Below, one piece after another: positions 17,545-37,840 of a stretch of 64,000 bases of DNA. Both the position numbers and the translations under genes were made by a program. Below the pieces are notes generated by a model. That model searched no databases and was not told the origin of the DNA. It saw only the letters and a list, made by a program, of their open reading frames with translations. The first letter of the stretch is position 1, and each line of letters starts with the position of its first letter. This DNA is from Pseudomonas sp. GD03919 (GTDB lineage Bacteria > Pseudomonadota > Gammaproteobacteria > Pseudomonadales > Pseudomonadaceae), in the NCBI RefSeq assembly GCF_029814935.1, contig NZ_CP104582.1, positions 1,860,001 through 1,924,000 of the forward strand, written 5' to 3'.

Positions 17545-18189
17545 TCAGGCCTTGGTCACCAGTTCGGACGCGGTCGACGGCGCCGGGCTGACTTCACAGC
17601 CCTTGAGCACCAGGCGGGTGATGGTCTGAGCAGCGGCTTCGTAGTCGCTGTCGTCGAGGGTGGTTTTGCCGGTAACGCTGGAGATCTGCCAGTCGAAGTC
17701 GGCGTAGGTCTGGGTCGCGGCCCAGATGCTGAACAGCAGGTGGTGCGGGTCGACCTGGGCCATCAGGCGTTGATCGATCCAGCGCTGGATGCAGGCGATA
17801 TTGTGCTTGGCCTGGGCGTTGAGCTGTTCGGTCTGCTCCGGCGACAGGTGCGGCGCGCCGTGCATGATCTCGCTGGCGAATACCTTGGAGGCGTGCGGCA
17901 GCTCGCGGGAGATGCGGATCTTCGAGCGGATGTAGGCGGTCAGCACTTCGCTCGGGTGACCCGGCTGGTTGAAGGGCGAAGAGGCGGCCAGCAGCGGCTC
18001 GATGATGCTTTCCAGCACCTCGCGGTAGAGGTTTTCCTTGGACTTGAAGTAGTAGTAGACGTTGGGCTTGGGCAGGCCTGCCTTGGCCGCGATATCACTG
18101 GTCTTGGTGGCAGCGAAGCCCTTGTCAGCGAACTCCTCGCTGGCTGCGCGCAGGATGAGCTCTTTGTTGCGCTCGCGTATGCTGGTCAT
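17545..18189 (-). CDS. TetR-family regulator, RutR-like
   Basis: 214 residues. The N-terminal TetR helix-turn-helix covers about residues 8-55 (ILRAASEEFADKGFAATKTS, then IAAKAGLPKPNVYYYFKSKE). The C-terminal ligand domain has features of the RutR/YcdC type (HNIACIQRWIDQRLMAQVDP). RutR-like proteins sense pyrimidines in E. coli and affect nucleobase metabolism; the location beside moaA and a nucleobase transporter fits, but the effector is unknown. Start chosen at MTSIRERNKELIL (18189), dropping a 17-residue upstream extension. Divergent from moaA. Confidence 0.8.
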   Translation of the reverse strand: MTSIRERNKELILRAASEEFADKGFAATKTSDIAAKAGLPKPNVYYYFKSKENLYREVLESIIEPLLAASSPFNQPGHPSEVLTAYIRSKIRISRELPHASKVFASEIMHGAPHLSPEQTEQLNAQAKHNIACIQRWIDQRLMAQVDPHHLLFSIWAATQTYADFDWQISSVTGKTTLDDSDYEAAAQTITRLVLKGCEVSPAPSTASELVTKA

Positions 18190-18310
18190 AAGGCCCTGTG
18201 TTTTCCTCTGCCGCCGGGCGACGGTCGGGCATGTTAGCATCGGCTTTGTGCGAGCCTCAAGGCAGCGGTTACGGGCTGTTCAGCGTTTAACTGACTTGCG
18301 GGTCAAATCA

Positions 18311-18320
18311 CTGTATACAG
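18311..18320. promoter_or_regulatory. Palindrome CTGTATACAG upstream of moaA
   Basis: Perfect 10-bp palindrome in the tetR-moaA divergent region, about 80 bases before moaA. It shares the TGTATACA core of the TTGTNNACAA series found at the purine genes, with both outer bases changed symmetrically. Confidence 0.45.
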
Positions 18321-18401
18321 GAAATGGCTTTTCTGTTTTTATCCTGTGCAACGAGTTTCATGACAAGACGTCCTGGCGCCTGACGCTGTAGGAGACCTGC
18401 T

Positions 18402-19397
18402 GTGCCCTCTCATCAACTCGTCGACCCCTTTGGCCGGCGCATCACCTACCTGCGTTTGTCGGTGACCGATCGCTGCGATTTTCGCTGCACCTATTGCATG
18501 AGCGAGGACATGGTCTTCGCGCCGCGTTCACAGATTCTCAGTCTCGAAGAGCTGTATGCGGTGGCTGACGCCTTTATCGGCCTGGGCGTGCGACGTATCC
18601 GCATCACCGGTGGTGAACCCTTGGTGCGCAAGAACCTGCTGAGCCTGCTGCAGCGCCTGGGAGGGCGTACCGAACTCGATGATCTGGCGATCACCACCAA
18701 CGGTTCACAGCTGGCGGAGATGGCCGTTGCGTTGCGTGCGGCCGGTGTGCGTCGTTTGAACATCAGCCTGGACTCGCTGCAGCGCGAGCGCTTCGCCGCC
18801 TTTACCCGGCGTGACAGGCTCGACCAGGTATTGGCCGGTATCGAAGCCGCGCGTATGGCCGGCTTCGAGCGTATCAAGCTCAACAGCGTGGTGCAGAGCG
18901 GGCGCAATGACGACGAGGTGCTGGATCTGATCGAGTTCGCCATCGAGCGCGGCCTGGATATCAGTTTCATCGAGGAAATGCCGCTGGGCAGCGTGGTCAG
19001 CCACAGCCGTGAGCAGACCTTCTGCTCCAGCGACGAGGTGCGCCAACGCATCGAGCAGCGCCATGCGCTGGTGCGCAGTAACAAGGTGACTGGCGGACCA
19101 TCACGCTATTGGCAGGTGGTCGGTACGCAGACCCAGGTCGGTTTCATCTCGCCGCACAGCCACAACTTCTGCGGTGACTGCAACCGTGTGCGGGTCACGG
19201 CCGAGGGCAAGCTGGTGCTCTGCCTTGGCCATGACAACGCGCTGGATCTCAAGCGTCTGTTGCGTACTCATCCCGGTGACGGCGAACGCTTGCGTCAGGC
19301 GCTGATCGAGGCGCTGCGCCTCAAGCCCGAGCGGCACCACTTCGCCACCGACGAGCAGGTTCAGGTGGTGCGCTTCATGAGCATGACCGGCGGCTGA
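18402..19397 (+). CDS. moaA: GTP 3',8-cyclase MoaA
   Basis: 331 residues. Radical-SAM motif CxxxCxxC at Cys25, Cys29 and Cys32; second [4Fe-4S] cluster ligands at Cys257, Cys260 and Cys274 (FCGDCNRVRV ... LVLCLG); conserved C-terminal GG. MoaA starts molybdenum-cofactor synthesis by converting GTP to 3',8-cyclo-7,8-dihydro-GTP. Pseudomonas often carries two moaA copies; this one stands alone beside purine genes, and xanthine dehydrogenase in the same region needs the cofactor. A purine-series palindrome lies in its upstream region. Confidence 0.95.
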   Translation: MPSHQLVDPFGRRITYLRLSVTDRCDFRCTYCMSEDMVFAPRSQILSLEELYAVADAFIGLGVRRIRITGGEPLVRKNLLSLLQRLGGRTELDDLAITTNGSQLAEMAVALRAAGVRRLNISLDSLQRERFAAFTRRDRLDQVLAGIEAARMAGFERIKLNSVVQSGRNDDEVLDLIEFAIERGLDISFIEEMPLGSVVSHSREQTFCSSDEVRQRIEQRHALVRSNKVTGGPSRYWQVVGTQTQVGFISPHSHNFCGDCNRVRVTAEGKLVLCLGHDNALDLKRLLRTHPGDGERLRQALIEALRLKPERHHFATDEQVQVVRFMSMTGG

Positions 19398-19430
19398 TGG
19401 ATACCGGCGCCTAGGCGCCGGCATCTGAAC

Positions 19431-20897
19431 TCAGACGGGGATGTTGGCGTGCTTGAGTGCCTGCGCCTGGCCATGCATCAGGCCGTAATGCAGGACTGCG
19501 CCAAGCAGGGCACCGAGTAGCCAGGCATAACCGGACAGCTGACTGAGGGCAGGCACCCACACCGAAGCGACGGAGAACATCGAGCCGATGGTGAAGGCGA
19601 GCATCGCTTTGCGGTTCCAGCCGCCGTCGAAGTAGTACGCCGAACCGACCTCGGCACTGAAGAGTTGCTGCAGATTGAGCTGACGGCGACGCACCAGGTA
19701 GTAGTCGGCGACGATGATGCCGTACAACGGAGCCAGCACTGCGCCCAGGGTATCGACGAAGGCGGCGATACCGACGCTGCTGATGAAGGCCACCCACAGT
19801 GCGCCGATGAAGAAGGCGATGCCGGCGGTGATGAAACCACCAGTGCGGGCACTGATGTGCGCTGGCGCCAGGTTGGCGAGGTCATAAGCGGGCGGGATGA
19901 AGTTGGCCACCAGGTTGATGCCCACGGTTGCGGCGAAGAAGGTTAGCGCGGCGATGATGGTCAGGGTCAGGTTGTCGACCCGCGCGACGATGTCGGTGGG
20001 GTTGGTCAGCGTCTCGCCGAACACCACCACGGTGCCAGCGGTGATCACCAGGGCGATCAGCGAGAAGAACGCCAGGCTCACCGGTAGGCCAAGGAAGTTG
20101 CCGATGGTCATCTGCTTCTCGCTTTTGACGAAGCGGGCGAAGTCGCCGTAGTTGATCACCACCGCGGCGAAGTAGGCGACCATGGTGCCGACCACGGCGA
20201 AGAAGGCGGCCACCGGGCCGACCTTGTATTCGCCCGAGCCACTGAAGATGTTGCCCAGCTCACTGAGCAGGCTCGGGCCGGCTTTGTACCAGATCAGCCC
20301 CGTCAGCGCGATCATCACCACGTACACCAGCGGCCCGGCCCAGTTGAGGAAGCGGGTGATCCAGCTCATGCCACTGACGAACAGCGCCACCTGGAACAGG
20401 CAGACGATCACATAGGACAACCAGCCGATGGCGGTCAGCCCCATATATATGGTCGGGTCTTGCGGCTGTAGTAGCGAGTTGAGCAGCAGCGCCACCGCGG
20501 TGGAGGCGAAATAGGTCTGCACGCCGTACCAGAAGATGGCGACGATACCGCGTACCAGCGCAGGGAAGTTGGCGCCGCGCACACCCATGCTGGCGCGGGC
20601 GAATACTGGAAAGGGGATGCCGTATTTGACGCTGGGTTTGCCGGTCAGCTGTACCAGGCCCATGACGATGAAACCAGCGAGGACGATACCGGCCAGCACC
20701 GCCCAGCCATTGAGCCCGTAGGAGATGAACAGCGTCGCCGCCAGGGTATAGCCGAACAGGCTTTGAATGTCGTTCGACCAGACATTGAAGATCTCGAACC
20801 AGCCCCAGGTGCGTTTCTCCGGTGCGAGTGGGGCGAGGTCTTCGTTGTGTAGCGAGGGGTCGATGTGCTTGATGCGAAAATCTTCGGTGGTGGACAT
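19431..20897 (-). CDS. NCS1-family nucleobase/allantoin transporter
   Basis: 488 residues, about 12 membrane segments. The N-terminus (APEKRTWGWFEIFNVWSNDI), GKPSVKYGIPFPVFARASMG and ALVRGIVAIFWYGVQTYFAS are diagnostic of the NCS1 symporters (Fur/Mhp1/PucI type). Substrates in the family are uracil, purines, allantoin or hydantoins; the setting inside purine-degradation genes favours a purine or allantoin. It converges with moaA. Two TTGTNNACAA-like palindromes lie upstream at 20994-21003 and 21040-21049. Confidence 0.9.
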   Translation of the reverse strand: MSTTEDFRIKHIDPSLHNEDLAPLAPEKRTWGWFEIFNVWSNDIQSLFGYTLAATLFISYGLNGWAVLAGIVLAGFIVMGLVQLTGKPSVKYGIPFPVFARASMGVRGANFPALVRGIVAIFWYGVQTYFASTAVALLLNSLLQPQDPTIYMGLTAIGWLSYVIVCLFQVALFVSGMSWITRFLNWAGPLVYVVMIALTGLIWYKAGPSLLSELGNIFSGSGEYKVGPVAAFFAVVGTMVAYFAAVVINYGDFARFVKSEKQMTIGNFLGLPVSLAFFSLIALVITAGTVVVFGETLTNPTDIVARVDNLTLTIIAALTFFAATVGINLVANFIPPAYDLANLAPAHISARTGGFITAGIAFFIGALWVAFISSVGIAAFVDTLGAVLAPLYGIIVADYYLVRRRQLNLQQLFSAEVGSAYYFDGGWNRKAMLAFTIGSMFSVASVWVPALSQLSGYAWLLGALLGAVLHYGLMHGQAQALKHANIPV

Positions 20898-20993
20898 GGA
20901 CAGCTCCCAGTTTTGTTTTTGCGCCGCAGGGCGTATGAGGAGATTTGTCTGCAGGTTTTGTTCCGATTTTGTATTCGCGTCACGACTGAGTCG

Positions 20994-21003
20994 ATGTATA
21001 CAG
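20994..21003. promoter_or_regulatory. TTGTNNACAA-like site upstream of NCS1 gene
   Basis: ATGTATACAG: perfect TGTATACA core with both outer bases off the consensus, 97 bases upstream of the NCS1 start. Confidence 0.45.
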
Positions 21004-21039
21004 CCATTTCAACATTTTTTCAGTCATAGCCTGGTTTTC

Positions 21040-21049
21040 TTGTACACAT
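21040..21049. promoter_or_regulatory. TTGTNNACAA-like site upstream of NCS1 gene
   Basis: TTGTACACAT matches TTGTNNACAA at all but the last defined base. Second such site in the NCS1 regulatory region. Confidence 0.4.
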
Positions 21050-21262
21050 AAAATGCTTTGCTGAATATGGGTTTTGGGTAAATTGAACACAAAAATAGAA
21101 ATATTGTGATCAAAAATTCGACCTTGCGGTCGGTTGTGTGATTGCAAGGTGTTGATGAAAAAGCCGGATAGGCGACCCGATTCTGCACCGATGCGGTGCC
21201 AGGCCTGATTGCGGGGCGCTGGGTTGGTGCGGCGATTCAAGCCGGCTTGATAAAGGCGGCGC

Positions 21263-21302
21263 AAAAAAAGGGGGAAGGGCGTGAACGCCAATCCCCCTTT
21301 TT
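21263..21302 (-). terminator. Rho-independent terminator of the tsx-like gene
   Basis: An A-rich/G-rich arm (21263-21274) pairs with a C-rich/T-rich arm (about 21292-21302), with a second short stem (gggcgt/acgcc) inside. On the minus strand it ends in a run of T, 50 bases past the tsx-like stop. Confidence 0.8.
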
Positions 21303-21351
21303 ATCCGGCCGCTGCCCCTACCGACGTCAGCCCGGTCCGTTGCGGCAATGG

Positions 21352-22212
21352 TCAGAAGTGATACTTGACCAGCGCCTGCACAGCGGTCTGGTCGAAACGA
21401 TCAGCCGAGCCATCCACTGGTTTGACGCCATATTTGGCGCGCCACATGTTGATCTCGGTGCCCACGTAGAGCTGGCGCTCCTTGCCGAACAGGGCCTTGC
21501 CCGCATCCCACTTGACCTGGACCGAGGAGCCGACCGAGGTCTGCGTGCCGGCATCGCGCGATGGCGAGCGCCAGTCGATGAAGCCGTCGACGACGAAATC
21601 CTGTTCGCCCAGGCTGAAAGGGTAGGCGGCACTGACAGTCAGCTGAGTGGCGTAGCCGTTGCTGTTACTGTCGGCGAAGAAGGTATGGTTGTTGATCTTG
21701 ACCTGGTACAGGTTGGTCTTGAAGTAGGTGAAGCCGGGTACTTCCCAGTCCAGGCCGATGCCGTACAGGTAGTTCTCCGGGCCAGGGCCGCCATTGCCTT
21801 TTTCATAGGTGAAGGCGGCGTAGACGTCCTTGATCGGACCAGCAGCCAGCTTCTGCCCGGTCAGCCAGCTCAGGCTGATGCGCGGGGAGAATTCCATGTA
21901 ATAGAAGGAATCCTTGTCATGCTGGCGGAAGGTGCCGTTGTTGAAGCTGCCGCGCGACTGCACGTTGTCGGCACGGATGTAGTCGACGAAATAGAAGAGG
22001 TCGCCCCAGGCCCAGCCGCTGGCGTGCTCGAAGGTAAAGGTGCTCTGGGTACGCTGTTCTTCGCCATTGAAGTTCATGCGCTGAAAGTTTTCGCCGTACA
22101 GGTATGACAGGCTGTTGTCCTGCCAGTGCAGCAGGTCGCCAGCGAGTGCCTGCTGACCAGAGAACAGTCCGGCTGACAGGGCGAGGCAGTGGGGTAGATG
22201 CTTGAGTTTCAT
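21352..22212 (-). CDS. Tsx-like nucleoside-specific outer-membrane channel
   Basis: 286 residues. Signal peptide (about 1-24, cleaved near QALAGDLLHW), then a beta-barrel with alternating aromatic strands (WQDNSLSYLYGENF, GWAWGDLFYFVDYIRADN, YYMEFSPRISLSWLTG) and a terminal aromatic residue (VKYHF) as in outer-membrane proteins. The pattern matches the Tsx/OmpK nucleoside channel family. It would let purines or nucleosides cross the outer membrane. The NCS2 remnant lies just upstream on the same strand, 76 bases away, with a hairpin (ctcccggc/gccgggag, 22246-22268) between them. Confidence 0.85.
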   Translation of the reverse strand: MKLKHLPHCLALSAGLFSGQQALAGDLLHWQDNSLSYLYGENFQRMNFNGEEQRTQSTFTFEHASGWAWGDLFYFVDYIRADNVQSRGSFNNGTFRQHDKDSFYYMEFSPRISLSWLTGQKLAAGPIKDVYAAFTYEKGNGGPGPENYLYGIGLDWEVPGFTYFKTNLYQVKINNHTFFADSNSNGYATQLTVSAAYPFSLGEQDFVVDGFIDWRSPSRDAGTQTSVGSSVQVKWDAGKALFGKERQLYVGTEINMWRAKYGVKPVDGSADRFDQTAVQALVKYHF

Positions 22213-22288
22213 GGCTTTTCCTTATTGTTGAGGTGCAGGCAACTGCTCCCGGCGGAGAATGCCGGGAGTATTCGGTCAAGGCTGGGGA

Positions 22289-22855
22289 TCAGATGGAGCG
22301 TGGTGCCGGGTCGAGGTCGCGGCTAAGGGTGCTCAGGCTGTCGTCGTTCGCTTCGTCCTGGCGGTTCTGCAGTACGGTATGCAGGTGCGCCTCGGGCTCG
22401 TAGTCATCTTCGGCCAGTGGTTCTTCCGGCAAGAAGATGTTCAGTGCGATGGCGCTGAAGGCACCGATGGCAATGGGTGAGCCGAGAATATTGCGCAGTA
22501 TCTCCGGCATCTGTGCCAGGGTTTCTGGCACTGCCGCTACGCCAAGGCCAAGGCCCAGGGAGATGGAAACGATGAGCATGTTGCGACGAAGCAGGCCAGC
22601 CTCGGTGAGAATCATGATACCGGCCACTGCCACGGTACCGAACATGATCAGCGTGGCGCCGCCCAGAACCGGCTTGGGCATGAGCTGCAGCACGCTGCCG
22701 ACGATCAGGGTGGGGGTGATGATGGCGACGAAGCTGGCCAGCACATGCTGCAGCGCGGCGAACACGGCGGGGAGGAAGTCGGGGGTGTCATCCAGTTGGT
22801 AGATCAGTTCGCTGCGAGCATCGGGCGCAGCTGGTGCGTTACGGTCGGTAGTCAT
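22289..22855 (-). pseudogene. NCS2 uracil/xanthine permease with internal in-frame deletion
   Basis: 188 residues, where NCS2 symporters have about 430-500. The start (FAALQHVLASFVAIITPTLI, to residue 53) is the NCS2 first membrane segment. It runs directly at about residue 54 into the C-terminal part (LQLMPKPVLGGATLIMFGTV, then NMLIVSISLGLGLGVAAVPE), which normally follows the tenth or eleventh helix. The middle, including the family's substrate-binding helices, is gone, yet the frame is kept. It is unlikely to transport. The junction is near 22697. Whether it is expressed is unknown; it sits just upstream of the tsx-like gene. Confidence 0.8.
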
Positions 22856-22970
22856 GTCATAGCCTGCCAGTTGTTTTTATACGGTCACGGGCTTGCACGA
22901 GGCTTCACGGCGCCTCTGTCCTGAGTGACAGAAGTCTGTCTGCCAGGTCAGGTTTTCTGACTATAGCAAT

Positions 22971-22980
22971 TTGTAGACAT
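22971..22980. promoter_or_regulatory. TTGTNNACAA-like site upstream of NCS2 remnant/tsx
   Basis: TTGTAGACAT matches the consensus except the last base; 116 bases upstream of the NCS2 remnant start, in an AT-rich promoter-like region. Confidence 0.4.
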
Positions 22981-23012
22981 GTATAAAAACAATTTATTTG
23001 TAGATTGTGCGC

Positions 23013-23054
23013 AAAAAATGAACCGCCGGTCAGCTCACGCTGTCGGCGGTTCAT
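23013..23054 (-). terminator. Second terminator behind puuD
   Basis: atgaaccgcc (23018-23027) pairs with ggcggttcat (23045-23054). On the minus strand the stem is followed by six T (complement of 23013-23018). Confidence 0.7.
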
Positions 23055-23060
23055 GGTTGT

Positions 23061-23090
23061 AAAAAGATGCCGCGGCCAGTCACGGCCGCG
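23061..23090 (-). terminator. Rho-independent terminator of the puuE-puuD operon
   Basis: The stem cgcggcc/ggccgcg (23071-23077 with 23084-23090) is followed on the minus strand, after five bases, by TTTTT. It lies 13 bases past the puuD stop. Confidence 0.7.
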
Positions 23091-23103
23091 ACATGTGTGG
23101 CAA

Positions 23104-24402
23104 TCAGTTGATCTGCGCGCCTTCGGTGATCCAGCTACCGATCAGGTCGCGTTCGTCCTGGGTCATCTGGGTGATATTGCCCAGGGGCATGATCTGCGTG
23201 GCCACGGTCTGTGCGTGAATCTTTGCCGCTTGTGCCTTCATCTGCTCGGGGGTGTCGAGCATGAAACCGGCCGGCGCGGTGCTGAACATCGGGCTGGTGG
23301 GGCTGGCCGAGTGGCACACGGTGCAGCGTTCGTGAATCACGCTTTCGACCTTGGCAAAATCACTCGCGCCGACGCTGACGGCTGCTGTGCCGTTTGTGTT
23401 GGCGGCTTGCTCGACAGGTGTGGCTGCCGGGCTTGCCTCTTCCACCTTGGCCGGTGCTGCGCTGGACGGCTGCTCGATGGCTGCGACTGGAGCAGCGGCC
23501 GGTGCGCGTTGCGCCGGCGCCGTGACGTAGGCCAGGCAGATCATGCCCAGTGCTGCCGCTGGCAGGGTCCAGACGTACTTGCTGCTGTCGTGGCGGGTGT
23601 TGAAGTAGTGACGTACCAGCACCGCCAGGATCGCAATCCCGGCCAGGATCGCCCAGTTGTACTGGCTGCCGTAAGTGCTCGGGAAGTGGTTGCTGATCAT
23701 GATGAACAGCACCGGCAGGGTGAAGTAGTTGTTGTGGCGCGAGCGCAGCAGACCTTTGGCCGGCAGCAGCGGGTCGGGCGTGGTGTTGGTTTCGATGGCC
23801 TTAACCAGTGCACGCTGGGCCGGCATGATGGTGAAGAACACGTTGCCGACCATGATGGTGCCGATGATTGCGCCGACATGGATGTACGCCGCGCGGCCAC
23901 TGAAGATCTGGCTGAAGCCATAGGCGGCGGCGATGATCAGCACGAATAGCACGGCGCCGAGCAGGGCCGGACGCTTGCCCAGCGGTGAGTCGCAGAGCAG
24001 GTGATAGATCACGTAGCTGACTGCCATCGAGCCAAGACCGATGGCGATGGCCGCAGCGGGCGCCAGATCGACGCCGGGCTTGACCAGATACAGACTGGGG
24101 TTGAGGTAATACACCACCAGCAGCAGGGCGACGCCCGACAGCCAGGTGGCGTAGGCTTCCCATTTGAACCAGTGCAGGTTCTCCGGCATTTTCGGCGGAG
24201 CCAGCTTGTACTTTTCCAGGTGGTAGATGCCGCCGCCGTGAATCGCCCAGAGGTCGCCCGACAGGCCCACGCGTGGGTTGCTCCGGTTGAGGTTGTTCTC
24301 CAGCCAGACGAAATAGAAGGATGCGCCGATCCAGGCGATACCGGTGATCATATGGATCCAGCGGATGCCCAGGTTTAGCCATTCGGTGAAATGTGCTTCC
24401 AC
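23104..24402 (-). CDS. puuD: Membrane-bound urate hydroxylase PuuD with cytochrome c domain
   Basis: 432 residues. The N-terminal 300 residues hold about eight membrane helices (EWLNLGIRWIHMITGIAWIG at the start, AAYIHVGAIIGTIMVGNVFF mid-protein). An Ala/Pro/Glu-rich periplasmic linker (about 300-345) leads to a C-terminal cytochrome c domain with haem motif CTVCH (360-364) and a likely axial Met near 405 (QIMPLGN). This is the PuuD architecture: urate is oxidised to 5-hydroxyisourate with electrons passed to cytochrome c rather than to O2 as in soluble uricase. Last gene of the operon puuE-uraD-allA-puuD; haem attachment needs the Ccm proteins, also encoded in this window. Confidence 0.93.
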   Translation of the reverse strand: MEAHFTEWLNLGIRWIHMITGIAWIGASFYFVWLENNLNRSNPRVGLSGDLWAIHGGGIYHLEKYKLAPPKMPENLHWFKWEAYATWLSGVALLLVVYYLNPSLYLVKPGVDLAPAAAIAIGLGSMAVSYVIYHLLCDSPLGKRPALLGAVLFVLIIAAAYGFSQIFSGRAAYIHVGAIIGTIMVGNVFFTIMPAQRALVKAIETNTTPDPLLPAKGLLRSRHNNYFTLPVLFIMISNHFPSTYGSQYNWAILAGIAILAVLVRHYFNTRHDSSKYVWTLPAAALGMICLAYVTAPAQRAPAAAPVAAIEQPSSAAPAKVEEASPAATPVEQAANTNGTAAVSVGASDFAKVESVIHERCTVCHSASPTSPMFSTAPAGFMLDTPEQMKAQAAKIHAQTVATQIMPLGNITQMTQDERDLIGSWITEGAQIN

Positions 24403-24449
24403 GATCTGTACCTCTTTTCCGGGATAGGCACGCCAGCCCCGGGCTTCTC

Positions 24450-24953
24450 TTATTGGTGGGGGTTGAGGAGAAGAAACTCGTCCTCATTGAAGAAATGCTC
24501 ATCGCAGTTGTTGCCGGAACCACTGCGATCAACCACCAGGAAGTCATCCCGCTTTTCGATCGCCAGCACCGGGTGGTGCCAGACGCCGCGATGGTAATTG
24601 ATGCCCTGCCTGCCATTGCTGAGGAAGGCACGCACGGCCCCTGATACAGGTACATCGCCAATTGGCGCGACCACGATCAGAAAGGGGTGGCCGAGCAGCG
24701 GAATGAAAGCCTGGCTGCCCAGCGGATGGCGTTCCAGCATGCGGATGGTCAACGGCATTTCCAGCGCCTCGGCACTGAAGATGCTGATGATTGCCTTGTC
24801 CTCCGGCTGTGCGGTCTCCACGGTGGCCAGCTTGTGATAGCGGCGGGTGGAACCGTTGTTGATCATGAAGAAGTCGCTGCCGTCGGTTTCGATCACGTCA
24901 CCGAAAGGGGCGAAGGCTTCTTTGCTCAGGGGCTCGATGGTCAGGCTACGCAT
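24450..24953 (-). CDS. allA: Ureidoglycolate lyase AllA
   Basis: 167 residues, the family length. It begins MRSLTIEPLSKEAFAPFG and has the cupin-like core (HPLGSQAFIPLLGHPFLIVV, GINYHRGVWHHPVLAIEK) typical of AllA. It splits ureidoglycolate into glyoxylate and urea, the last step of allantoate breakdown. It sits between uraD and puuD. In P. aeruginosa an allantoicase gene lies between uraD and allA; here the 69-bp gap holds none, so the supply of ureidoglycolate is not explained by this cluster. Confidence 0.92.
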   Translation of the reverse strand: MRSLTIEPLSKEAFAPFGDVIETDGSDFFMINNGSTRRYHKLATVETAQPEDKAIISIFSAEALEMPLTIRMLERHPLGSQAFIPLLGHPFLIVVAPIGDVPVSGAVRAFLSNGRQGINYHRGVWHHPVLAIEKRDDFLVVDRSGSGNNCDEHFFNEDEFLLLNPHQ

Positions 24954-25022
24954 GGCTGTTCTACTTATTCATTGGTTATGAGCCGGCCGCATGGAGGGCC
25001 GGGACTGATACGCCGACGAAGC

Positions 25023-25538
25023 TCAAAGCTGCTGCAGGCGGAAGAGGGCGATCTTGTTGATCTCGGCCAGGGCGGTGGCGAATTCCTGCTCCGGCGTGTT
25101 GTGAATACGTTCCTCGAAGGCGGCCAGGATCTGGTGGCGGTTGCTGCCCTTGACGGCCTTGATGAAGGGGAAGCCGAACTTGGCCTTGTAGGCATCGTTG
25201 AGTTCGGTGAAGCGAGCGAACTCCTCGGCGGTGCACTCGTGGATGCCGGCGCCGGATTGCTCGGCGGTGCTGGAAGCGGTCAGTTCGCCGCGTACGGCGG
25301 CTTTGCCGGCCAAGTCCGGGTGAGCGTTGATCAGCGCCAGTTGCGCCTCATGACTGGCGGACAGAAGGATGTCGGCCATACGCTGCTGCAGGCCGTCGAT
25401 GTCGTCTACCGACGCATCCAGGCCGAGGTCATAGGCTTTCTCGGCCACCCAGGGCGAGTGCTCGTAGATGTCGGCGAAGGCGGCGACGAACGCGTCGCGG
25501 CTCAGCTGGGAAGGGGTCAGGGTCTGGAAACGGCTCAT
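25023..25538 (-). CDS. uraD: OHCU decarboxylase UraD
   Basis: 171 residues starting at ATG 25538 inside the four-base overlap with puuE; an upstream extension would lie within puuE. Family motifs: SRDAFVAAFADIYEHSPWVA, the catalytic-His region LALINAHPDLAGKAA (His about 72) and FGFPFIKAVKGSNRHQILAA. It converts 2-oxo-4-hydroxy-4-carboxy-5-ureidoimidazoline to S-allantoin, directly after HiuH in the pathway. Confidence 0.94.
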   Translation of the reverse strand: MSRFQTLTPSQLSRDAFVAAFADIYEHSPWVAEKAYDLGLDASVDDIDGLQQRMADILLSASHEAQLALINAHPDLAGKAAVRGELTASSTAEQSGAGIHECTAEEFARFTELNDAYKAKFGFPFIKAVKGSNRHQILAAFEERIHNTPEQEFATALAEINKIALFRLQQL

Positions 25539-26476
25539 GGGCGGCTCTCTTTTTCGGTCGCGCTGAAGGGGTGGGTGGCATGCCAGTGCTTGGCGATGTC
25601 GACGCGGCGGGCGCACCAGACCTTGTCATGGCTCTTCACATAGTCGATGAAGCGTGCCAGCGAGGCCAGGCGGGCCGGACGACCGAGCAGGCGGCAGTGC
25701 ATGCCGATCGACAGCATCTTCGGAGCGCCGGCTTTACCCTCGGCGTAGAGCACGTCGAAGGCATCCTTGAGGTATTCGAAGAAATCGTCGCCCTTGTTGA
25801 AGCCCTGCACCTGGGTGAAGCGCATGTCGTTGGTGTCGAGGGTGTAAGGGATTACCAGGTGCGGCTTCTCTGCGGTGCTGGCCGGGTCCCAGTAGGGCAG
25901 GTCGTCATCGTAGGTGTCGGAGTCGTAGAGGAAACCGCCTTCCTCGCGCACGAGGCGCCGGGTGTTCGGGCCCAGACGACCGGTGTACCAGCCCAGCGGA
26001 CGTTCGCCGCTCAGCTCAGTGAGGATGCGGATAGCCTCGAACATGTGCTCGCGCTCGGTCGCTTCGTCCATGTTCTGGTAATCGATCCAGCGGTAGCCGT
26101 GGCTGCAGATCTCATGCCCGGCGGCGACCATCTGGCGAATCACCTCGGGGTGACGCTGGGCGGCCATGGCCACGGCGAAAATGGTCAGGGGAATGTCGTG
26201 CTTCTTGAATAGCTCGAGCAGGCGCCAGACTCCGGCGCGGCTGCCGTATTCGTAGAGCGATTCCATGCATAGGTTGCGCTGGCCCTGCAGCGGCTGGGCG
26301 GCGACCATCTCGGAGAGGAAGGCCTCGGATTCCTTGTCGCCGTGCAGGATGTTGCGCTCGCCGCCTTCCTCGTAATTGAGCACGAAGGACAAGGCGATGC
26401 GGGCATCGCCCGGCCAGTGTGGGTGGGGTGGGTTTGCGCCGTAGCCGATCAGATCGCGTGGGTAATCAGCATTCAC
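25535..26476 (-). CDS. puuE: Allantoinase PuuE (polysaccharide-deacetylase fold)
   Basis: 313 residues from GTG 26476, which has aggaag a few bases before it and begins VNADYPRDLIGYGANPP; a longer frame to 26560 would cross the operator. NodB-like motifs: ALSFVLNYEEGGE, AAGHEICSHGYRWIDYQ, GWYTGRLGPNTRRLV and MLSIGMHCRLLGRPAR. PuuE opens allantoin to allantoate without the usual metal-dependent amidohydrolase fold. First gene of the puuE-uraD-allA-puuD operon. A perfect TTGTATACAA lies 75 bases upstream. Confidence 0.94.
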   Translation of the reverse strand: MNADYPRDLIGYGANPPHPHWPGDARIALSFVLNYEEGGERNILHGDKESEAFLSEMVAAQPLQGQRNLCMESLYEYGSRAGVWRLLELFKKHDIPLTIFAVAMAAQRHPEVIRQMVAAGHEICSHGYRWIDYQNMDEATEREHMFEAIRILTELSGERPLGWYTGRLGPNTRRLVREEGGFLYDSDTYDDDLPYWDPASTAEKPHLVIPYTLDTNDMRFTQVQGFNKGDDFFEYLKDAFDVLYAEGKAGAPKMLSIGMHCRLLGRPARLASLARFIDYVKSHDKVWCARRVDIAKHWHATHPFSATEKESRP

Positions 26477-26550
26477 TGCAGTCTTCCTATCTGGAGCGTG
26501 GCGGTCACTGCGCGCCTGGCAATGAATGGCTGCGCGACCGGGATGGTTAA

Positions 26551-26560
26551 TTGTATACAA
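26551..26560. promoter_or_regulatory. Operator-like palindrome TTGTATACAA upstream of puuE
   Basis: Perfect 10-bp palindrome, extended by aa/ag on the flanks, 75 bases upstream of puuE. Identical to the site at 28944-28953. Confidence 0.65.
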
Positions 26561-26731
26561 AGTTGTTTGCCGTTTGTAAATCGACTTTTCATCATTTTCT
26601 GCATTCTTTGTAACGCGGAAGAGGCTGACCGAGTGGACGGTAATTCGCGCCGAGTGGTGTGTGATTGCTGGTTTGCGATGAATGCATATGGCGGTGGATT
26701 GGCTGCATCTATAACGTTTTATCTGGATTTA

Positions 26732-26741
26732 TTGTGTACAA
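26732..26741. promoter_or_regulatory. Operator-like site TTGTGTACAA upstream of hiuH
   Basis: Matches TTGTNNACAA fully and is flanked by A/T (ATTGTGTACAATT). 137 bases upstream of the hiuH start. Confidence 0.6.
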
Positions 26742-26878
26742 TTTCAGGTTGAAATGTTTTATATTCTGGCTGCGTGCTATCCTGCCATTGCGTCGGAGCA
26801 CTGCGACGAGCCGATTTCAACAGAGTAGAGGAGGTGTGGTGTTCGTTGGGCGCAGGTCGCCACGAGCATCCGAGACCC

Positions 26879-27232
26879 ATGGGACGTTTGACTACGCATG
26901 TACTGGACGCCGCACACGGTTGCCCAGGGAGTGACATCAAGGTCGAGCTGTATCGCGTCGAAGGCGCGCAGCTGGAGCTGATCAATACCGTTACCACCAA
27001 CCACGATGGCCGTTGCGACGCGCCGGTGCTGCAGGGCGATGACTACCGTACGGGCGTCTACCAGCTGCATTTCCATGCCGGCGACTATTACCGCGCCCGT
27101 GGCGTGACGCTGCCGGAACCGGCTTTTCTCGATGTTGTGGTGCTGCGTTTCGGCATCGATGCCGGCCAGGAGCACTACCACGTGCCGCTACTGATTTCGC
27201 CTTACAGCTACTCCACCTATCGCGGTAGCTGA
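26879..27232 (+). CDS. hiuH: 5-hydroxyisourate hydrolase HiuH
   Basis: 117 residues from ATG 26879. Transthyretin-like fold with the three family signatures: GRLTTHVLDAAHGCPG at the start, a central NHDGRCDAP and the C-terminal YRGS. The His, Arg and Ser/Tyr positions of the active site are kept. It hydrolyses 5-hydroxyisourate to OHCU. No signal peptide, so cytoplasmic. A weak Shine-Dalgarno precedes the chosen start, but conservation begins there. Divergent from puuE; followed by a strong terminator. Confidence 0.93.
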   Translation: MGRLTTHVLDAAHGCPGSDIKVELYRVEGAQLELINTVTTNHDGRCDAPVLQGDDYRTGVYQLHFHAGDYYRARGVTLPEPAFLDVVVLRFGIDAGQEHYHVPLLISPYSYSTYRGS

Positions 27233-27293
27233 TGACTGGCGGGGCAGCCGCCAGACGAATGCTTGTCACCCTCAGACTCGTTTGAGTCCCTAT

Positions 27294-27319
27294 GCCCGCT
27301 CACACTGCGGGCTTTTTTT
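27294..27319 (+). terminator. Rho-independent terminator of hiuH
   Basis: gcccgc (27294-27299) pairs with gcgggc (27307-27312), followed by seven T (27313-27319). Confidence 0.85.
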
Positions 27320-27411
27320 CGTCCGCGTGTAGAGCGACGCGTAGCCCATCAGATGAAATCCGGGGCCGATGATAGGCATGGGGCGAGGGCGCTTGTCGTT
27401 GCCAGGCCAAA

Positions 27412-27440
27412 CGAAAAGCCCCGGCACAGGGCCGGGGCTT
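27412..27440 (-). terminator. Rho-independent terminator of the AzgA-type permease
   Basis: agccccggc (27417-27425) pairs with gccggggct (27431-27439). On the minus strand the stem is followed by TTTTCGTTT. It lies 15 bases past the permease stop. Confidence 0.8.
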
Positions 27441-27454
27441 CGTGGCGTCTGCCG

Positions 27455-28795
27455 TCAGAGGAAGGCGAACTTGGCGATGAAGATCGCGCACAGCACGTAC
27501 AGGCTGATCGATACCTTATCGCGCTGGCCGGTCAGCAGCTTCAGCGTCGCGTAGGTGAGAAAGCCCAGGGCGATGCCGTTGGCGATGGAGAAGGTCAGCG
27601 GCATCATCACCACGGTGACGATGGCCGGGATGGTGTCGGTATGGTCTTTCCAGTCGATGTGCGCCATGCCGCTCATCATCAGCATCGCCACGTAGATCAG
27701 CGCGCCTGCGGTGGCGTAGGCGGGAATCATGCCGGCCAACGGAGCGAAGAACATCGCGGCGAGGAACAGGATACCGACGGTGATGGCGGTCAGGCCGGTA
27801 CGGCCACCGGCAGCGACACCGGCAGCGCTTTCCACATAGCTGGTCACCGGCGGGCAGCCAACCATCGCACCGACCACGCTGGAGGTGGAGTCGGCTTTCA
27901 GCGCCTTGGACAGGTTCTGGATCTTGCCGTCTTCATCCACCAGGTTGGCGCGGTGGGCGACGCCCATCAGGGTGCCGGCGGTGTCGAACATGTTCACGAA
28001 GAGGAAGGCCAGGATCACGCTGATCATTGCCACGTTGAACGCGCCGGCGATGTCCATGGCCAGGAAGGTCGGTGCCAGGCTCGGCAGCATCGACACCAGG
28101 CCGCCATATTCCACCAGGCCCAGGGCCCAGCCGATGGCGGTTACACCGAGCATGCTGAACAGGATGGCGCCGAACACGTTGCGGTGGCTGAGCACGGCGA
28201 TCAGCAGGAAGCACACGGCGGCCAGCAGCGCCGACGGGTTGGCGAATGAGCCCATGGTCAGCAGGGTGGCCGGGCTGTCGACGACGATGCCGGCGGTCTT
28301 CAGGCCGATCAGACCGAGGAACAGGCCGACCCCGGCGCCCATGGCGAAACGCAGGCTCATCGGGATGCTGTTGAGCAGCCATTCGCGAATCTTCGACAGG
28401 CTCATGATCATGAACAGCACGCCGGAGATGAACACCGCGCCCAGTGCGATCTGCCAGCTGTAACCCATTTCACCGACGACGGTGTAGGTGAAGAAGGCGT
28501 TCAGGCCCATGCCAGGCGCCAGGCCCACCGGCCAGTTGGCGTACAGGCCCATCAGGAAGCAGCCCAGGGCTGCACCGATGCAGGTGGCGACGAAAGCGGC
28601 GCCATGGTCTATGCCGGCGCCGGCCATGATGTTGGGGTTGACGAAGATGATGTAGGCCATGGTGACGAAGGTCGTCAGGCCGGCCAGCAGTTCGGTCTTG
28701 ATGGTGGTGCGGTGCTCGGTCAGTTTGAAGAAGCGGTCGAGCAGACCTCCTCTTGCCAGTTGAGTCGCGTGTTGTTCTTGTTTGATGCTTTCCAC
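27455..28795 (-). CDS. AzgA-type purine (adenine/guanine/hypoxanthine) permease
   Basis: 446 residues, about 13 membrane segments. AzgA-like (COG2252) signatures: LLAGLTTFVTMAYIIFVNPN near residue 40, GLAPGMGLNAFFTYTVVGEM, FVNMFDTAGTLMGVAHRANL and GCPPVTSYVESAAGVAAGGR. These permeases import purine bases by proton symport. The gene is alone, with its own terminator and an upstream perfect TTGTATACAA, and lies between hiuH and the GntR regulator, so purine base uptake is the natural role. This intact permease contrasts with the deleted NCS2 gene at 22289. Confidence 0.92.
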   Translation of the reverse strand: MESIKQEQHATQLARGGLLDRFFKLTEHRTTIKTELLAGLTTFVTMAYIIFVNPNIMAGAGIDHGAAFVATCIGAALGCFLMGLYANWPVGLAPGMGLNAFFTYTVVGEMGYSWQIALGAVFISGVLFMIMSLSKIREWLLNSIPMSLRFAMGAGVGLFLGLIGLKTAGIVVDSPATLLTMGSFANPSALLAAVCFLLIAVLSHRNVFGAILFSMLGVTAIGWALGLVEYGGLVSMLPSLAPTFLAMDIAGAFNVAMISVILAFLFVNMFDTAGTLMGVAHRANLVDEDGKIQNLSKALKADSTSSVVGAMVGCPPVTSYVESAAGVAAGGRTGLTAITVGILFLAAMFFAPLAGMIPAYATAGALIYVAMLMMSGMAHIDWKDHTDTIPAIVTVVMMPLTFSIANGIALGFLTYATLKLLTGQRDKVSISLYVLCAIFIAKFAFL

Positions 28796-28943
28796 TGCGG
28801 GTACTCCTCATGTCTCTTGTTGTGTACCGCCCAGAGCGTTGCGCAAGGACAATGCTCTCTGAGGTAGGTGGTGTTTCTGGCAGTGCTTCCTGGCTAAGTT
28901 GTTGACCGAGCGATCAAGAAGTCGCTCAGGCGTGATTATGCTG

Positions 28944-28953
28944 TTGTATACAA
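28944..28953. promoter_or_regulatory. Operator-like palindrome TTGTATACAA upstream of permease
   Basis: Perfect palindrome identical to the puuE site, 149 bases upstream of the AzgA-type permease start. Confidence 0.65.
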
Positions 28954-29274
28954 AAAATGCAATTAATGTTTTTAATGTTGCATTGATCGCACCAGTTGAC
29001 TGACCGGGCGTGAGTGCGACCGAATTGGGCGACAATCCATTCTGTCTTGAAGGTAAAAGACTTTTAAAACAAAGAGATAGGAAAGGGGCTTGCTGGAACG
29101 CCTTTGGCTGCCCGAGCAGCTGTCAGCCAGTGATAGGCGGTCCTTAGCTGCTAATGAACTGAGACGGTAGCCATATATAAGGAAAGGATTTGTTTCGCTG
29201 CGCTAAATCTCAGGCAATGTACTGCCATCGCCAGCTATGACGTCATACGACGCAGGGTGTAGTGGCTGATTGCT

Positions 29275-29284
29275 TTGTGTACAA
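29275..29284. promoter_or_regulatory. Operator-like site TTGTGTACAA upstream of gntR
   Basis: Same ten bases as the hiuH site, flanked by CT and TT. 105 bases upstream of the GntR start, consistent with autoregulation. Confidence 0.6.
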
Positions 29285-29388: not shown

Positions 29389-30156
29389 ATGAACGATCAA
29401 TTGCAGCCACTGAAGAAGCAGCCGCGTGCAGGCAAAAGCAGCCGCAGCGGGACTCAGGACGATGTCGTATATGCCCATATTTTCGATGCCATTCTCGAGC
29501 AGCGTCTGGCGCCCGGCACCAAGCTGAGCGAAGAGGCGCTGGGTGAGATCTTCGGCGTCAGTCGCACCATCATTCGTCGCGCCCTGTCGCGTCTGGCTCA
29601 CGAGGGCGTGGTGCTGTTGCGCCCGAACCGCGGTGCGGTCGTCGCCAGCCCGAGCGTCGAAGAAGCTCGGCAGATTTTCTATGCACGTCGCCTGGTCGAA
29701 CGTGCCATCACCGAACTGGCCGTCGAGCACGCGACAGCCGAGCAGTTGGCCGAACTGCGGCAGATGGTCAGGGATGAGCAGGACAGCTTTTCCCGGGGTG
29801 ATCGTGGCGCGGGTATTCGCCTCTCCGGCGAGTTCCACCTGAAGCTGGCCGAGGCCGCGCGCAATGCGCCGCTCGTCAGCTTCCAGCGCAGCCTGGTGTC
29901 GCAGACCTCGCTGATCATCGCCCAGTACGAAAGCAGCGGCCGTTCGCACTGCTCCTATGACGAGCACAATCAGCTGATCGACGCCATCGAGGCGCGCGAT
30001 GCCGAGCGTGCGGTGCACCTAATGATGCATCACATGGATCACATCGACAGCAAGCTCAACCTCGACGAGGAAGGCGCCTCGGACGACCTGCACGCCGTGT
30101 TCTCGCACCTGTTGCAGACCAAGAAGAAGCCTGGCCGCAGCGCTGCCAACCGCTGA
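29389..30156 (+). CDS. GntR/FCD-family regulator, probable purine-catabolism repressor
   Basis: 255 residues from ATG 29389 (MNDQLQPLKKQ). The winged helix-turn-helix of the FadR/FCD type spans about 30-100 (GTKLSEEALGEIFGVSRTII, RRALSRLAHEGVVLLRPNRG). The C-terminal FCD ligand domain (about 105-230) keeps metal-binding histidines (GEFHLKLAEAARN, YDEHNQLIDAIEARD, HLMMHHMDHI). FCD regulators bind short palindromes of type TNGTNNNACNA or TTGTNNACAA. That form recurs across the purine genes here, so this gene is the best candidate for their regulator. Confidence 0.88.
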   Translation: MNDQLQPLKKQPRAGKSSRSGTQDDVVYAHIFDAILEQRLAPGTKLSEEALGEIFGVSRTIIRRALSRLAHEGVVLLRPNRGAVVASPSVEEARQIFYARRLVERAITELAVEHATAEQLAELRQMVRDEQDSFSRGDRGAGIRLSGEFHLKLAEAARNAPLVSFQRSLVSQTSLIIAQYESSGRSHCSYDEHNQLIDAIEARDAERAVHLMMHHMDHIDSKLNLDEEGASDDLHAVFSHLLQTKKKPGRSAANR

Positions 30157-31830: not shown

Positions 31831-31900
31831 CGTGTGAATCTCAATCAGTGGGGGCGCTGGGTGCACCAAAAAATGGGTAGTGCGCACAGCGCACCAATAA

Positions 31901-32731
31901 TCAGGACCGGCGCGAGGCCGGCAGCAGCTTGGCCACGCTGGATTCGCCTTTCTTCACGTCTTGGCCGAAGCTTGCGTTGTAGGTAGCGATCACCTCACCG
32001 GCGATGGACACGGCGATTTCTACCGGCAGCTTGCCTTTCACTTCCGGCAGACCCATGGGGCAGCGCATGCGCGCCATCAGGGTTTCTTCGAAGCCGCGCT
32101 CGCGCAGGCGATGCTCGAACTTGACGCGTTTGGTCTTCGAGCCGATCAGGCCGTAGTAGGCGAAGTCGCCGCGTTTGAGGATCGCCGCGGTCAGCTCAAG
32201 GTCGAGCTGGTGGTTGTGGGTCATGACGATGTAGTAACTGCCGGGTGGCATGTTCTCCACCTCGTCGACCACTTCGTCACTCACGATCTTTTCCACGCCG
32301 GCGGGGATGTGTTCGGGAAATTCGTTCTCCCGCGAATCGATCCAGCGCACCTTGCACGGCAGGCTGGCCAGCAGCGGTACCAACGCGCGACCGACATGGC
32401 CGGCGCCGAATACGGCGATCTGCGCCTGCGGCTGGCCCATTGGCTCGAACAACAACACGGTGGCGCCGCCGCAGCACTGGCCGAGGCTGGCGCCGAGGGA
32501 GAAACGCTCCAGGCGAGTGTCCTGGCTACGGCTGGCGAGCATCTCGCGCGCCATTTCCATGGCCTTGTATTCCAGATGGCCGCCGCCGATGGTCTCGAAG
32601 ATGCGTTCGGCGGTGACCACCATCTTCGAACCGGCATTACGCGGCGTCGAGCCGCGTTCTTCGATGATGGTCACCAGCACGCAGGGCTCACCTTTTTCCA
32701 GCAGCTCGGCGAGGGCACTGATCCAGCTCAT
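31901..32731 (-). CDS. xdhC: Xanthine dehydrogenase accessory protein XdhC
   Basis: 276 residues. The N-terminal XdhC/CoxI domain has VLVTIIEERGSTPRNAGSKM and LGQCCGGATVLLFEP; the C-terminal Rossmann domain has IAVFGAGHVGRALVPLLASL and YYIVMTHNHQLDLEL. XdhC binds the molybdenum cofactor and promotes its sulphuration before insertion into XdhB. Its ATG overlaps the stop of a 43-codon ORF by three bases, so translation may be coupled to it. Confidence 0.94.
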   Translation of the reverse strand: MSWISALAELLEKGEPCVLVTIIEERGSTPRNAGSKMVVTAERIFETIGGGHLEYKAMEMAREMLASRSQDTRLERFSLGASLGQCCGGATVLLFEPMGQPQAQIAVFGAGHVGRALVPLLASLPCKVRWIDSRENEFPEHIPAGVEKIVSDEVVDEVENMPPGSYYIVMTHNHQLDLELTAAILKRGDFAYYGLIGSKTKRVKFEHRLRERGFEETLMARMRCPMGLPEVKGKLPVEIAVSIAGEVIATYNASFGQDVKKGESSVAKLLPASRRS

Positions 32732-32859: not shown

Positions 32860-32888
32860 TGTTGTGCACCGTGGTTTGGGGGGGGAAG

Positions 32889-35358: not shown

Positions 35359-35375
35359 CTTTCTATCCCCAACTC

Positions 35376-36815
<1,440 letters not shown>

Positions 36816-37180
36816 GGACGACCTCCAGGCACTTTATTGTTATGACTCGGTTGGCTGGCCAGGTGATGCGCGCACTGCAGGGCCCTGGCGCGGGCTGCCA
36901 TGGGGCCAATCTAGGGTTTTCTGACTTTTGGGTCAATAAAATTCTGACCTGAAAGTCAGCCTATTTTTTGGCAGCCTGATCCGTGAGTCTGGCCATTCTG
37001 CTTGATGGCTTCCGCCCCGCAGGGCGCTCCGCCATTCCTGCAGCAAGTGTCATGCCGTACGCTTGGCCCGGATGCGCCCTGTGTTACACTCGCTGCCGAA
37101 TTTTCGTGCTCCTGCCCAGCCGCAGCGGGGCTCTCAGACTCGACCGCCTGCCTCTGGATCGACGCAACTTAAGGAATGTC
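36816..37180. other. Divergent regulatory region xdhA / gntR2
   Basis: 365 bp between divergent starts, no gene supported. The frame of the downstream GntR gene stays open back to 36983, but the product upstream of 37181 looks non-coding. It contains a pair of 14-bp dyads at 36922-36958. Confidence 0.65.
36922..36958. promoter_or_regulatory. Paired TGAC-N6-GTCA dyads, candidate operator
   Basis: TGACTTTTGGGTCA (36922-36935) and TGACCTGAAAGTCA (36945-36958) each read TGAC-N6-GTCA. Together they form a larger inverted repeat, with ctgacttt and aaagtcag at the outer edges. Centres are 23 bases apart, about two helical turns, which suits cooperative binding of a dimeric regulator. Confidence 0.55.
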
Positions 37181-37840
37181 ATGACGTTCAAGGCCCTGGA
37201 CAGCCTCGCCGAGCAAATTGCCCATTACCTGGCAGAGCGGATCATTCGCGGTGAGCTCAAGGAGCGCGAGCGTATCCAGGAGCAGAAGGTTACCCAGGCA
37301 CTCAATGTCAGCCGTGGCTCGGTGCGCGAAGCGCTGCTTATCCTCGAGCGTCGCCATCTGATCGTGATCCTGCCGCGCCGCGGTGCCCAGGTCAGTGAAC
37401 TGACCGCCCATCACGTTACCAGCCTCTATGCCCTGACCATCGAGCTGTACGCCATGCTGGCCCGCGCGGTCATCGAACGCTGGCAGGTGGAGGCCGATCT
37501 GGCGCCGTTCATCGAGATCAAAAATCGCCTGCAGGACAGCCTCGAGCGCGACGATATCAGCGCTTTCGTCGAGAACAGTTTCGATGTGATGCGCGCGGCC
37601 TTTCCCTTCGCCGACAATCCCTACCTGCAGGAAACTCTGGAGAATCTGCTGCCGGCCATCAGCCGCACCTATCATCTGGCGCTGGAACGGCGCAAAGGTG
37701 AGATGGGCCAGTTCATGAACACCTTCGCCAGTCTGCTGCAGGCGATCATCACCCGCGACCCCGTGCGTGCCCGCGAGGTGCTGCAGGCCTACGGTGAGCA
37801 TAACTGCCAGCTGGTGCTGGCCACCCTGGCCGAGCGCTAA
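37181..37840 (+). CDS. GntR/FCD-family transcriptional regulator (second)
   Basis: 219 residues from ATG 37181, preceded by aaggaa at good spacing. The GntR winged helix occupies about 10-75 (LAEQIAHYLAERIIRGELKE, VTQALNVSRGSVREALLILE). The C-terminal FCD domain is helical (about 80-215). It is divergent from xdhA and sits 6 bases before smc, so it may be co-transcribed with smc although functionally tied to the xdh side. The TGAC-N6-GTCA pair between it and xdhA is its candidate target. Ligand unknown. Confidence 0.85.
   Translation: MTFKALDSLAEQIAHYLAERIIRGELKERERIQEQKVTQALNVSRGSVREALLILERRHLIVILPRRGAQVSELTAHHVTSLYALTIELYAMLARAVIERWQVEADLAPFIEIKNRLQDSLERDDISAFVENSFDVMRAAFPFADNPYLQETLENLLPAISRTYHLALERRKGEMGQFMNTFASLLQAIITRDPVRAREVLQAYGEHNCQLVLATLAER

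Follow-up and report, generated by a model that had tools for sequence, protein, structure and literature searches.

Analysis of a 64,000-nucleotide stretch of the Pseudomonas sp. GD03919 genome (contig NZ_CP104582.1, positions 1,860,001 to 1,924,000; hereafter the window, from a genome that consists of a single contig of 4.66 Mb) indicates that its purine-catabolism cluster is probably a regulon with two operator codes: the U box, TTGTRYACAA, which would be read by a GntR/FCD regulator of the UgmR type, and the T box (or T core), TGACYN4RGTCA, which would be read by a RutR-like TetR protein. The original prediction, made from the letters of this stretch, had assigned the set to the GntR/FCD regulator; it overlooked the second palindrome, TGACYN4RGTCA, which is present at xdhA and at moaA. 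An operator of its own would account for the absence of the xdh operon from the urate regulon. The genes preceded by U boxes or U-type boxes, that of the regulator among them, are the following:

18402..19397, plus strand, moaA, the second MoaA of the genome (NCBIfam TIGR02666, above cut-off)
19431..20897, minus strand, NCS1 family permease, allantoin-permease-like (Pfam Transp_cyt_pur; NCBIfam allantoin permease model below cut-off)
25535..26476, minus strand, puuE (from the list of open reading frames), followed on the same strand by uraD, allA and puuD
26879..27232, plus strand, hiuH, hydroxyisourate hydrolase (NCBIfam TIGR02962, above cut-off)
27455..28795, minus strand, purine permease (Pfam Xan_ur_permease)
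29389..30156, plus strand, ugmR-like gene, repressor with a GntR helix-turn-helix and an FCD domain (Pfam, above cut-off)

In this set allA was recognized by NCBIfam and puuD by Pfam (Urate_ox_N), and the names puuE and uraD are presumed, in line with the original prediction. Another MoaA-like gene, 37% identical to the cluster moaA, lies elsewhere in the genome. The boxes themselves, listed without strand, are:

18311..18320, U-type box CTGTATACAG, moaA/tetR intergenic region, core present, exact form not intact
20994..21003, U-type box, NCS1 permease promoter (about -107), CTGTATACA identical in 6 aligned promoters
21040..21049, U-type box, NCS1 permease promoter (about -153), TGTGTACAAG identical in 6 aligned promoters
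26551..26560, U box TTGTATACAA, puuE promoter, exact site
26732..26741, U box TTGTGTACAA, hiuH promoter, exact site
28944..28953, U box TTGTATACAA, permease promoter, exact site
29275..29284, U box TTGTGTACAA, promoter of the ugmR-like gene itself, exact site

The four exact sites were found where they had been predicted: TTGTNNACAA occurs four times in the window, always within the same 2.7 kb, compared with 0.34 occurrences expected, and none of 100 shuffles reached four. Genome-wide, this loose consensus was rejected as a mark of the regulon because its 23 sites are fewer than those of the reversed control (38), and the centres AT, GT and AC alone matter. The proposed whole-genome scan was thus answered in two parts, TTGTNNACAA not being enriched but TTGTATACAA and TTGTGTACAA being confined to four places in 4.66 Mb, all inside 26551-29284; the exact form of the box, TTGT(AT/GT/AC)ACAA, has no place beyond those four in the whole genome. 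Matches with at most one mismatch were not above chance in the window (12 versus 9.0 expected; 16 of 100 shuffles reached 12), so that near matches required other evidence. Seven places in the window carry the looser inner core, TGTRTACA, namely 18311, 20994, 21040, 26551, 26732, 28944 and 29275; these make 11 strand hits, compared with 0.72 expected, and none of 100 shuffles reached that number. Among the near matches originally put forward, those at 18311, 20994 and 21040 were supported by conservation, the NCS1 promoter having been aligned in 6 of the 8 relatives asked. The near match at 22971 (TTGTAGACAT) is present by letter and lacks the core, which leaves it unsupported rather than disproved.

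Conservation was evaluated on upstream regions from the same genus, one per genome, with n varying by gene according to the stretches covered; the NCS1, tsx and gcl promoters were taken from a set of 80 named records that partly overlaps the main set. In addition, all 256 four-letter half-sites were ranked at a fixed spacing, with two bases between the halves for the U box and six for the T box. The exact U box was present at all 29 puuE promoters, 28 of 29 hiuH promoters, all 33 permease promoters and 63 of 67 ugmR promoters (core 67/67), and TTGT ranked first at each of these four genes, the runner-up reaching 5 to 11 genomes. The core was found at 6 of 7 NCS1 promoters and at 56 of 63 gcl promoters, 55 of which have two. 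At moaA, to which the regulon had been tentatively extended, support is weaker, with the core at 13/16 promoters and the exact box at 4/16. As had been predicted for the xdh operon, the exact box was absent from xdhA promoters (0/77; looser core 1/77, in genome G076) and likewise upstream of guaD (0/65), xdhC (0/64) and xdhB (0/78); the same was true of puuD (0/27), allA (0/27) and uraD (0/28).

The product of the gene at 29389..30156 matched PF00392 (63.9 bits; cut-off 27) and PF07729 (83.8 bits; cut-off 24.3), giving the FadR-subfamily arrangement of an N-terminal GntR winged helix and a C-terminal FCD domain, and the U box, judged by conservation alone, has the form N-GT-N-AC-N that PMC4494728 gives for GntR operators. 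The gene adjoins guaD-xdh and urate genes, and its presumed operator is found in relatives at allantoin genes and at gcl (puuE and gcl, as above); from this context and these operators, rather than residue by residue, the protein is apparently an orthologue of UgmR (PA1520) of P. aeruginosa. According to PMC12694930, UgmR keeps the allantoin genes and gcl repressed in the absence of uric acid, and its motif at gcl is confirmed by high-throughput systematic evolution of ligands by exponential enrichment (HT-SELEX) data; the motif is therefore already in print and, since the regulator matches the published urate-relieved UgmR, the U-box half of the proposal is known biology, which the original prediction had got right. 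A presence/absence survey of 119 same-genus genomes detected a ugmR orthologue (E ≤1e-60) in 108, which together hold 801 TTGTATACAA sites (mean 7.4; control mean 0.37). The 11 genomes without UgmR hold 10, six of them from the G076 draft, and when that draft was left out the mean was 0.40 versus 0.60 for the control. By conservation and by presence and absence across genomes, the originally predicted control of puuE, hiuH, the permease and its own gene by the UgmR-type protein is well supported; its putative control of moaA is supported more weakly.

The second code involves the following genes and boxes, the boxes again being listed without strand:

17545..18189, minus strand, RutR-like TetR gene (Pfam TetR_N with a YcdC-like domain at the C-terminus), candidate T-box reader
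18292..18305, T box TGACTTGCGGGTCA, moaA/tetR intergenic region, starting 19 bp ahead of the U box
21119..21132, degenerate T box CGACCTTGCGGTCG, NCS1 promoter, where 5 aligned relatives have an intact TGAC...GTCA box
28903..28916, degenerate T box TGACCGAGCGATCA, permease promoter, its centre lying 39 bp away from the U box
35376..36815, minus strand, xdhA, leading gene of xdhABC-guaD by the order of open reading frames (30529-36815, entirely on the minus strand)
36922..36935, T box, xdhA promoter, gene-proximal copy, intact
36945..36958, T box, xdhA promoter, second copy, 23 bp from the first
37181..37840, divergent from xdhA, second GntR/FCD regulator gene, the two T boxes lying in a promoter region common to both genes

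The names xdh and guaD are presumed. The two boxes of the xdhA promoter read TGACTTTTGGGTCA and TGACCTGAAAGTCA, and TGACYN4RGTCA occurs three times in the window compared with 0.15 expected. The T core was present at all 77 xdhA promoters, where TGAC ranked first of the 256 half-sites and the runner-up reached 22/77; 62 of the 77 have two boxes, spaced 23 bp apart in 57 of those 62. Permease promoters carried it in 31 of 33 cases, its centre lying 37-40 bp away from that of the U box, the window genome being one of the two without an intact core, and moaA promoters in 14 of 16, with both boxes in 12 and a 17-bp distance to the centre of the U box in 10. Frequencies were 6/7 at NCS1 and 16/36 at tsx among the named records (tsx in the main set, 6/23), and the box was absent from puuE and hiuH promoters (0/29 each) and upstream of guaD (65 regions), xdhC (64) and xdhB (78). 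The moaA of genome G001 (85% identical) has a promoter with neither U nor T box, and this genome lacks UgmR, the TetR orthologue and xdhA alike. A narrower consensus, TGACYTNNRRGTCA, was replaced by TGACYN4RGTCA because relatives had perfect palindromes with different inner letters; its controls, at no more than one mismatch and counted per locus, gave 7/752 for shuffled upstream regions and 4/268 for coding stretches. The xdhA promoter had no match in a plasmid collection.

These counts bear directly on the idea that UgmR alone controls the whole set, xdh being controlled indirectly or not at all. U boxes do track the presence of UgmR and cover most promoters of the cluster, and UgmR is described as the repressor of the urate and allantoin set in PMC12694930; however, none of the 77 xdhA promoters has the exact U box and every one of them has a different palindrome, including those of three genomes (G026, G043 and G050) that have no UgmR match at 1e-60, retain the TetR protein and keep the T boxes. 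We consider this explanation very improbable. Likewise, the suggestion that the GntR/FCD regulator links cofactor supply to xanthine oxidation did not survive, as xdh is without a U box while moaA and xdhA share the T box; the tie between moaA and xdh is probably the T box, not the U box.

The T box is most likely read by the RutR-like TetR protein, whose gene is divergent from moaA, and we infer that this protein acts as a repressor. Its closest solved structures are those of E. coli RutR (3loc/4jyk/4xk4; E 8e-40) and it has the TetR_N plus TetR_C_3 (YcdC-like) domain pair; its scores fell below the RutR equivalog cut-offs (175.6 versus 368 for TIGR03613; 159.5 versus 230 for NF011584). Judged by this protein, the strain has its closest named relatives in Pseudomonas composti and P. 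oleovorans (95% identical). An orthologue (E < 1e-100) was found in 112 of the 119 genomes, and its distribution follows that of xdhA closely, with 111 genomes having both, 6 having neither, G014 having TetR only and G076 xdhA only. Outside the genus, 194 genomes of the wider order were surveyed, of which 51 had an xdhA match (E ≤1e-90), 44 of these outside the family; 40 xdhA loci, 37 outside the family, made up the promoter set. Of the 37 out-of-family loci, 18 had TGAC-N6-GTCA no more than 300 bp from xdhA, with the next half-site of that spacing at 3/37, and a RutR-like tetR gene lay within the stretch around xdhA in 17 of the 37, which is not a fixed-window count, some of these stretches having been chosen to include a known tetR. 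At four loci (L261, L267, L269 and L272) one T box stands upstream of both tetR and xdhA.

Two other proteins could be proposed as readers. The second GntR/FCD protein (37181-37840) is encoded nearest to the xdhA boxes, and has a homologue beside xdhA in most same-genus loci; 66 of 70 regions upstream of its gene, which overlap the xdhA promoter, contain T boxes. Its assignment is nevertheless unlikely: the protein was undetected in the 37 out-of-family xdhA loci, 18 of which have the box, and had no match beside xdhA in the L119, L121 and L124 stretches, although the box is kept at all 77 xdhA promoters. T boxes also occur at moaA, next to tetR, and the N-GT-N-AC-N form given in PMC4494728 is opposite in polarity to TGAC...GTCA. 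Alternatively, the T box would belong to a different paralogue of the RutR family, such as the copy at 866020 (39% identical), and the cluster TetR protein would read something else, such as motility genes. In most of the 119 genomes the TetR protein has two or more matches (E ≤1e-30), and paralogues may share a site because PK.N..YY, in the presumed recognition helix, is common to 16 of 18 relatives; PA1504, moreover, has been linked to motility by chromatin immunoprecipitation sequencing (ChIP-seq) in PMC13086498. It is the orthologue of the cluster TetR protein, however, that tracks xdhA (111 genomes with both, 6 with neither), and RutR-like genes neighbour xdhA in the 17 out-of-family loci, so that we rate a paralogue as quite unlikely too.

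Several observations weigh against the assignment of the two codes to the UgmR-type protein and the RutR-like TetR protein. The genomes share kinship, so the counts are not independent, and UgmR co-occurs with xdhA nearly as well as TetR does (108 genomes with both, 7 with neither, 4 with xdhA only), for which reason few genomes are telling. G050 keeps the U boxes of puuE and hiuH and has a best UgmR homologue only 38% identical, which could reflect recent loss of UgmR or a stand-in paralogue, and G076, a 93% complete draft of about 650 contigs, has both box types, with neither regulator found. TTGT is absent from the top half-sites at moaA. As to the T box, the pattern is not enriched across the whole window genome (32 sites versus 27 in the control), so that the evidence for it is conservation, and the permease and NCS1 copies of the window genome are degenerate. 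T boxes are rare at gcl (10/63), and one lies upstream of tetR in 14 of 74 genomes only, the same 14 that share it with moaA, with which TetR autoregulation was set aside. In the wider order, 19 of the 37 out-of-family xdhA promoters are without a T box, and its frequency is similar with (9/17) and without (9/20) an adjacent tetR. Furthermore, PA1504 appears among the motility-tied regulators in a study that covered 172 P. aeruginosa regulators by ChIP-seq and whose main text has no match for xanthine, xdhA, PA1524 or purine (PMC13086498). No literature link of a RutR-like TetR protein to Pseudomonas xdh or moaA was found in a search outside which supplements, peak lists and RegPrecise lay.

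Taken together, these data suggest a circuit in which a dimer of the UgmR-type protein on the U box would repress puuE-uraD-allA-puuD, hiuH, the permease, the NCS1 gene, moaA and its own gene until accumulating urate relieves the repression. The RutR-like TetR protein would hold xdhABC-guaD through the pair of T boxes 23 bp apart, keeping the operon off until an early purine, upstream of urate, appears, and would co-control moaA, the permease and the NCS1 gene through their T boxes; urate formed by Xdh would then release UgmR. moaA and the two permease genes, whose products would be needed throughout, bear both boxes. As a first guess the signal of the TetR protein is xanthine, favoured because the pyrimidine part of its ring system shares the dioxo pattern of uracil, the ligand of RutR. 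The second guess is allantoin, considered because PMC12694930 reports a UgmR-independent effect of allantoin on gcl with no known factor. In its fullest form, the proposal is a circuit with two locks, in which a xanthine-sensing TetR protein would open xdh and a dedicated moaA, the resulting urate would open the UgmR steps, promoters with both boxes at a nearly constant distance (moaA, the permease, NCS1 and, in some species, gcl) would act as two-input gates, and RutR-like repressors at xdh would be old in the order and predate UgmR; we hold this full version to be about as likely to fail as to stand, leaning slightly towards failure. If it is true, induction of moaA, for molybdenum cofactor supply, coincides with that of the molybdenum enzyme requiring the cofactor. 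The proposal would also assign purine targets and a DNA site to a PA1504-type TetR protein, PA1504 being a possibility for gcl in a December 2025 paper (PMC12694930) and filed under motility in an April 2026 paper (PMC13086498).

Further observations were made on the sites and their surroundings. In the gcl promoters (L305-L384) the spacings of the two U boxes cluster near 128, 139 and 149 bp, one helical turn apart, with a vector strength of 0.87 at 10.5 bp over 54 of 55 pairs, which suggests looping; for puuE-hiuH the U-box spacing has its period peak at 12, and no looping conclusion was drawn there for that reason. Many relatives have gcl near tetR. The window genome lacks a close gcl, its sole match (E ≤1e-30) to P. 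fluorescens gcl being 34% identical (G000:C1:3680468-3682048). In stretches from other genomes (site at 1501-1510 in each), TTGTATACAA lies upstream of an azurin-like gene (L390, L401 and L404, from three genomes of the genus; about 20-125 bp from the starts of the open reading frames; copper-binding domain confirmed by Pfam for L390 only), whose product is possibly an electron carrier for a cytochrome-type urate oxidase. A U box also precedes a second purine permease by 77-78 bp in L391, L393 and L397 (confirmed by Pfam in L391 alone) and, by 62-70 bp, a gene in L394 and L398 that we take to be dihydrolipoamide-dehydrogenase-like. The NCS1 promoter (20900-21250) has further strongly conserved stretches in relatives beyond the U and T boxes, for example around TTTTTGATCACAAT. 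A 188-amino-acid fragment at 22289-22855 matches the C-terminal end of a purine permease only (profile positions 330-388 of 389), with homologous stretches in close relatives, and the open reading frame at 14728-15477, slightly past tetR, resembles an IS5-type transposase as judged by eye.

Among known systems, E. coli RutR shares with the TetR protein the TetR_N plus YcdC-like domains and an IWA.TQ.YADF stretch, and the T box has the outer letters and polarity of what we take to be the RutR box, TTGACCANNTGGTCAA, a literature search for which yielded nothing useful. The TetR protein here differs in scoring below both NCBIfam RutR cut-offs and in being encoded with moaA and purine genes. The cluster GntR/FCD gene resembles that of UgmR (PA1520) in family, in lying near permease, hiuH and puuE genes and guaD-xdh, and in having its box at the same kinds of promoter, the gene order of PA1513-PA1524 being partly assumed. 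The published UgmR acts upstream of the allantoin and urate genes and of gcl, and uric acid relieves its repression. The present case differs in that the window genome has no close homologue of gcl (best 34% identity); moaA and NCS1 are not among the targets in the available text of PMC12694930. PA1504, whose orthology to the TetR protein is presumed, has the same domain type (YcdC/RutR-type C-terminus) and is encoded near gcl, for which it was proposed merely as a possibility (PMC12694930); unlike the protein proposed here, it is tied to motility (PMC13086498), and neither paper, in its available text, gives it an xdh or moaA target. XdhR-type regulators of xdh, of the TetR or LysR families, are already known from other bacteria; UgmR and its urate response are known too. 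According to the available texts of PMC6627660 and PMC7057948, these cluster-linked regulators comprise a TetR-family repressor in S. coelicolor, a locus in A. fabrum called homologous and a LysR-family protein in C. necator, with guanosine tetraphosphate (ppGpp) and GTP, cyclic diguanylate (c-di-GMP) and ppGpp, and xanthine as the respective signals. Likened by description only, they differ from the present case in that neither text links them to moaA or to a urate repressor. On binding of the xdh promoter, which would make the cluster TetR protein a repressor of the XdhR type, the box conserved at 77 of 77 xdhA promoters bears indirectly.

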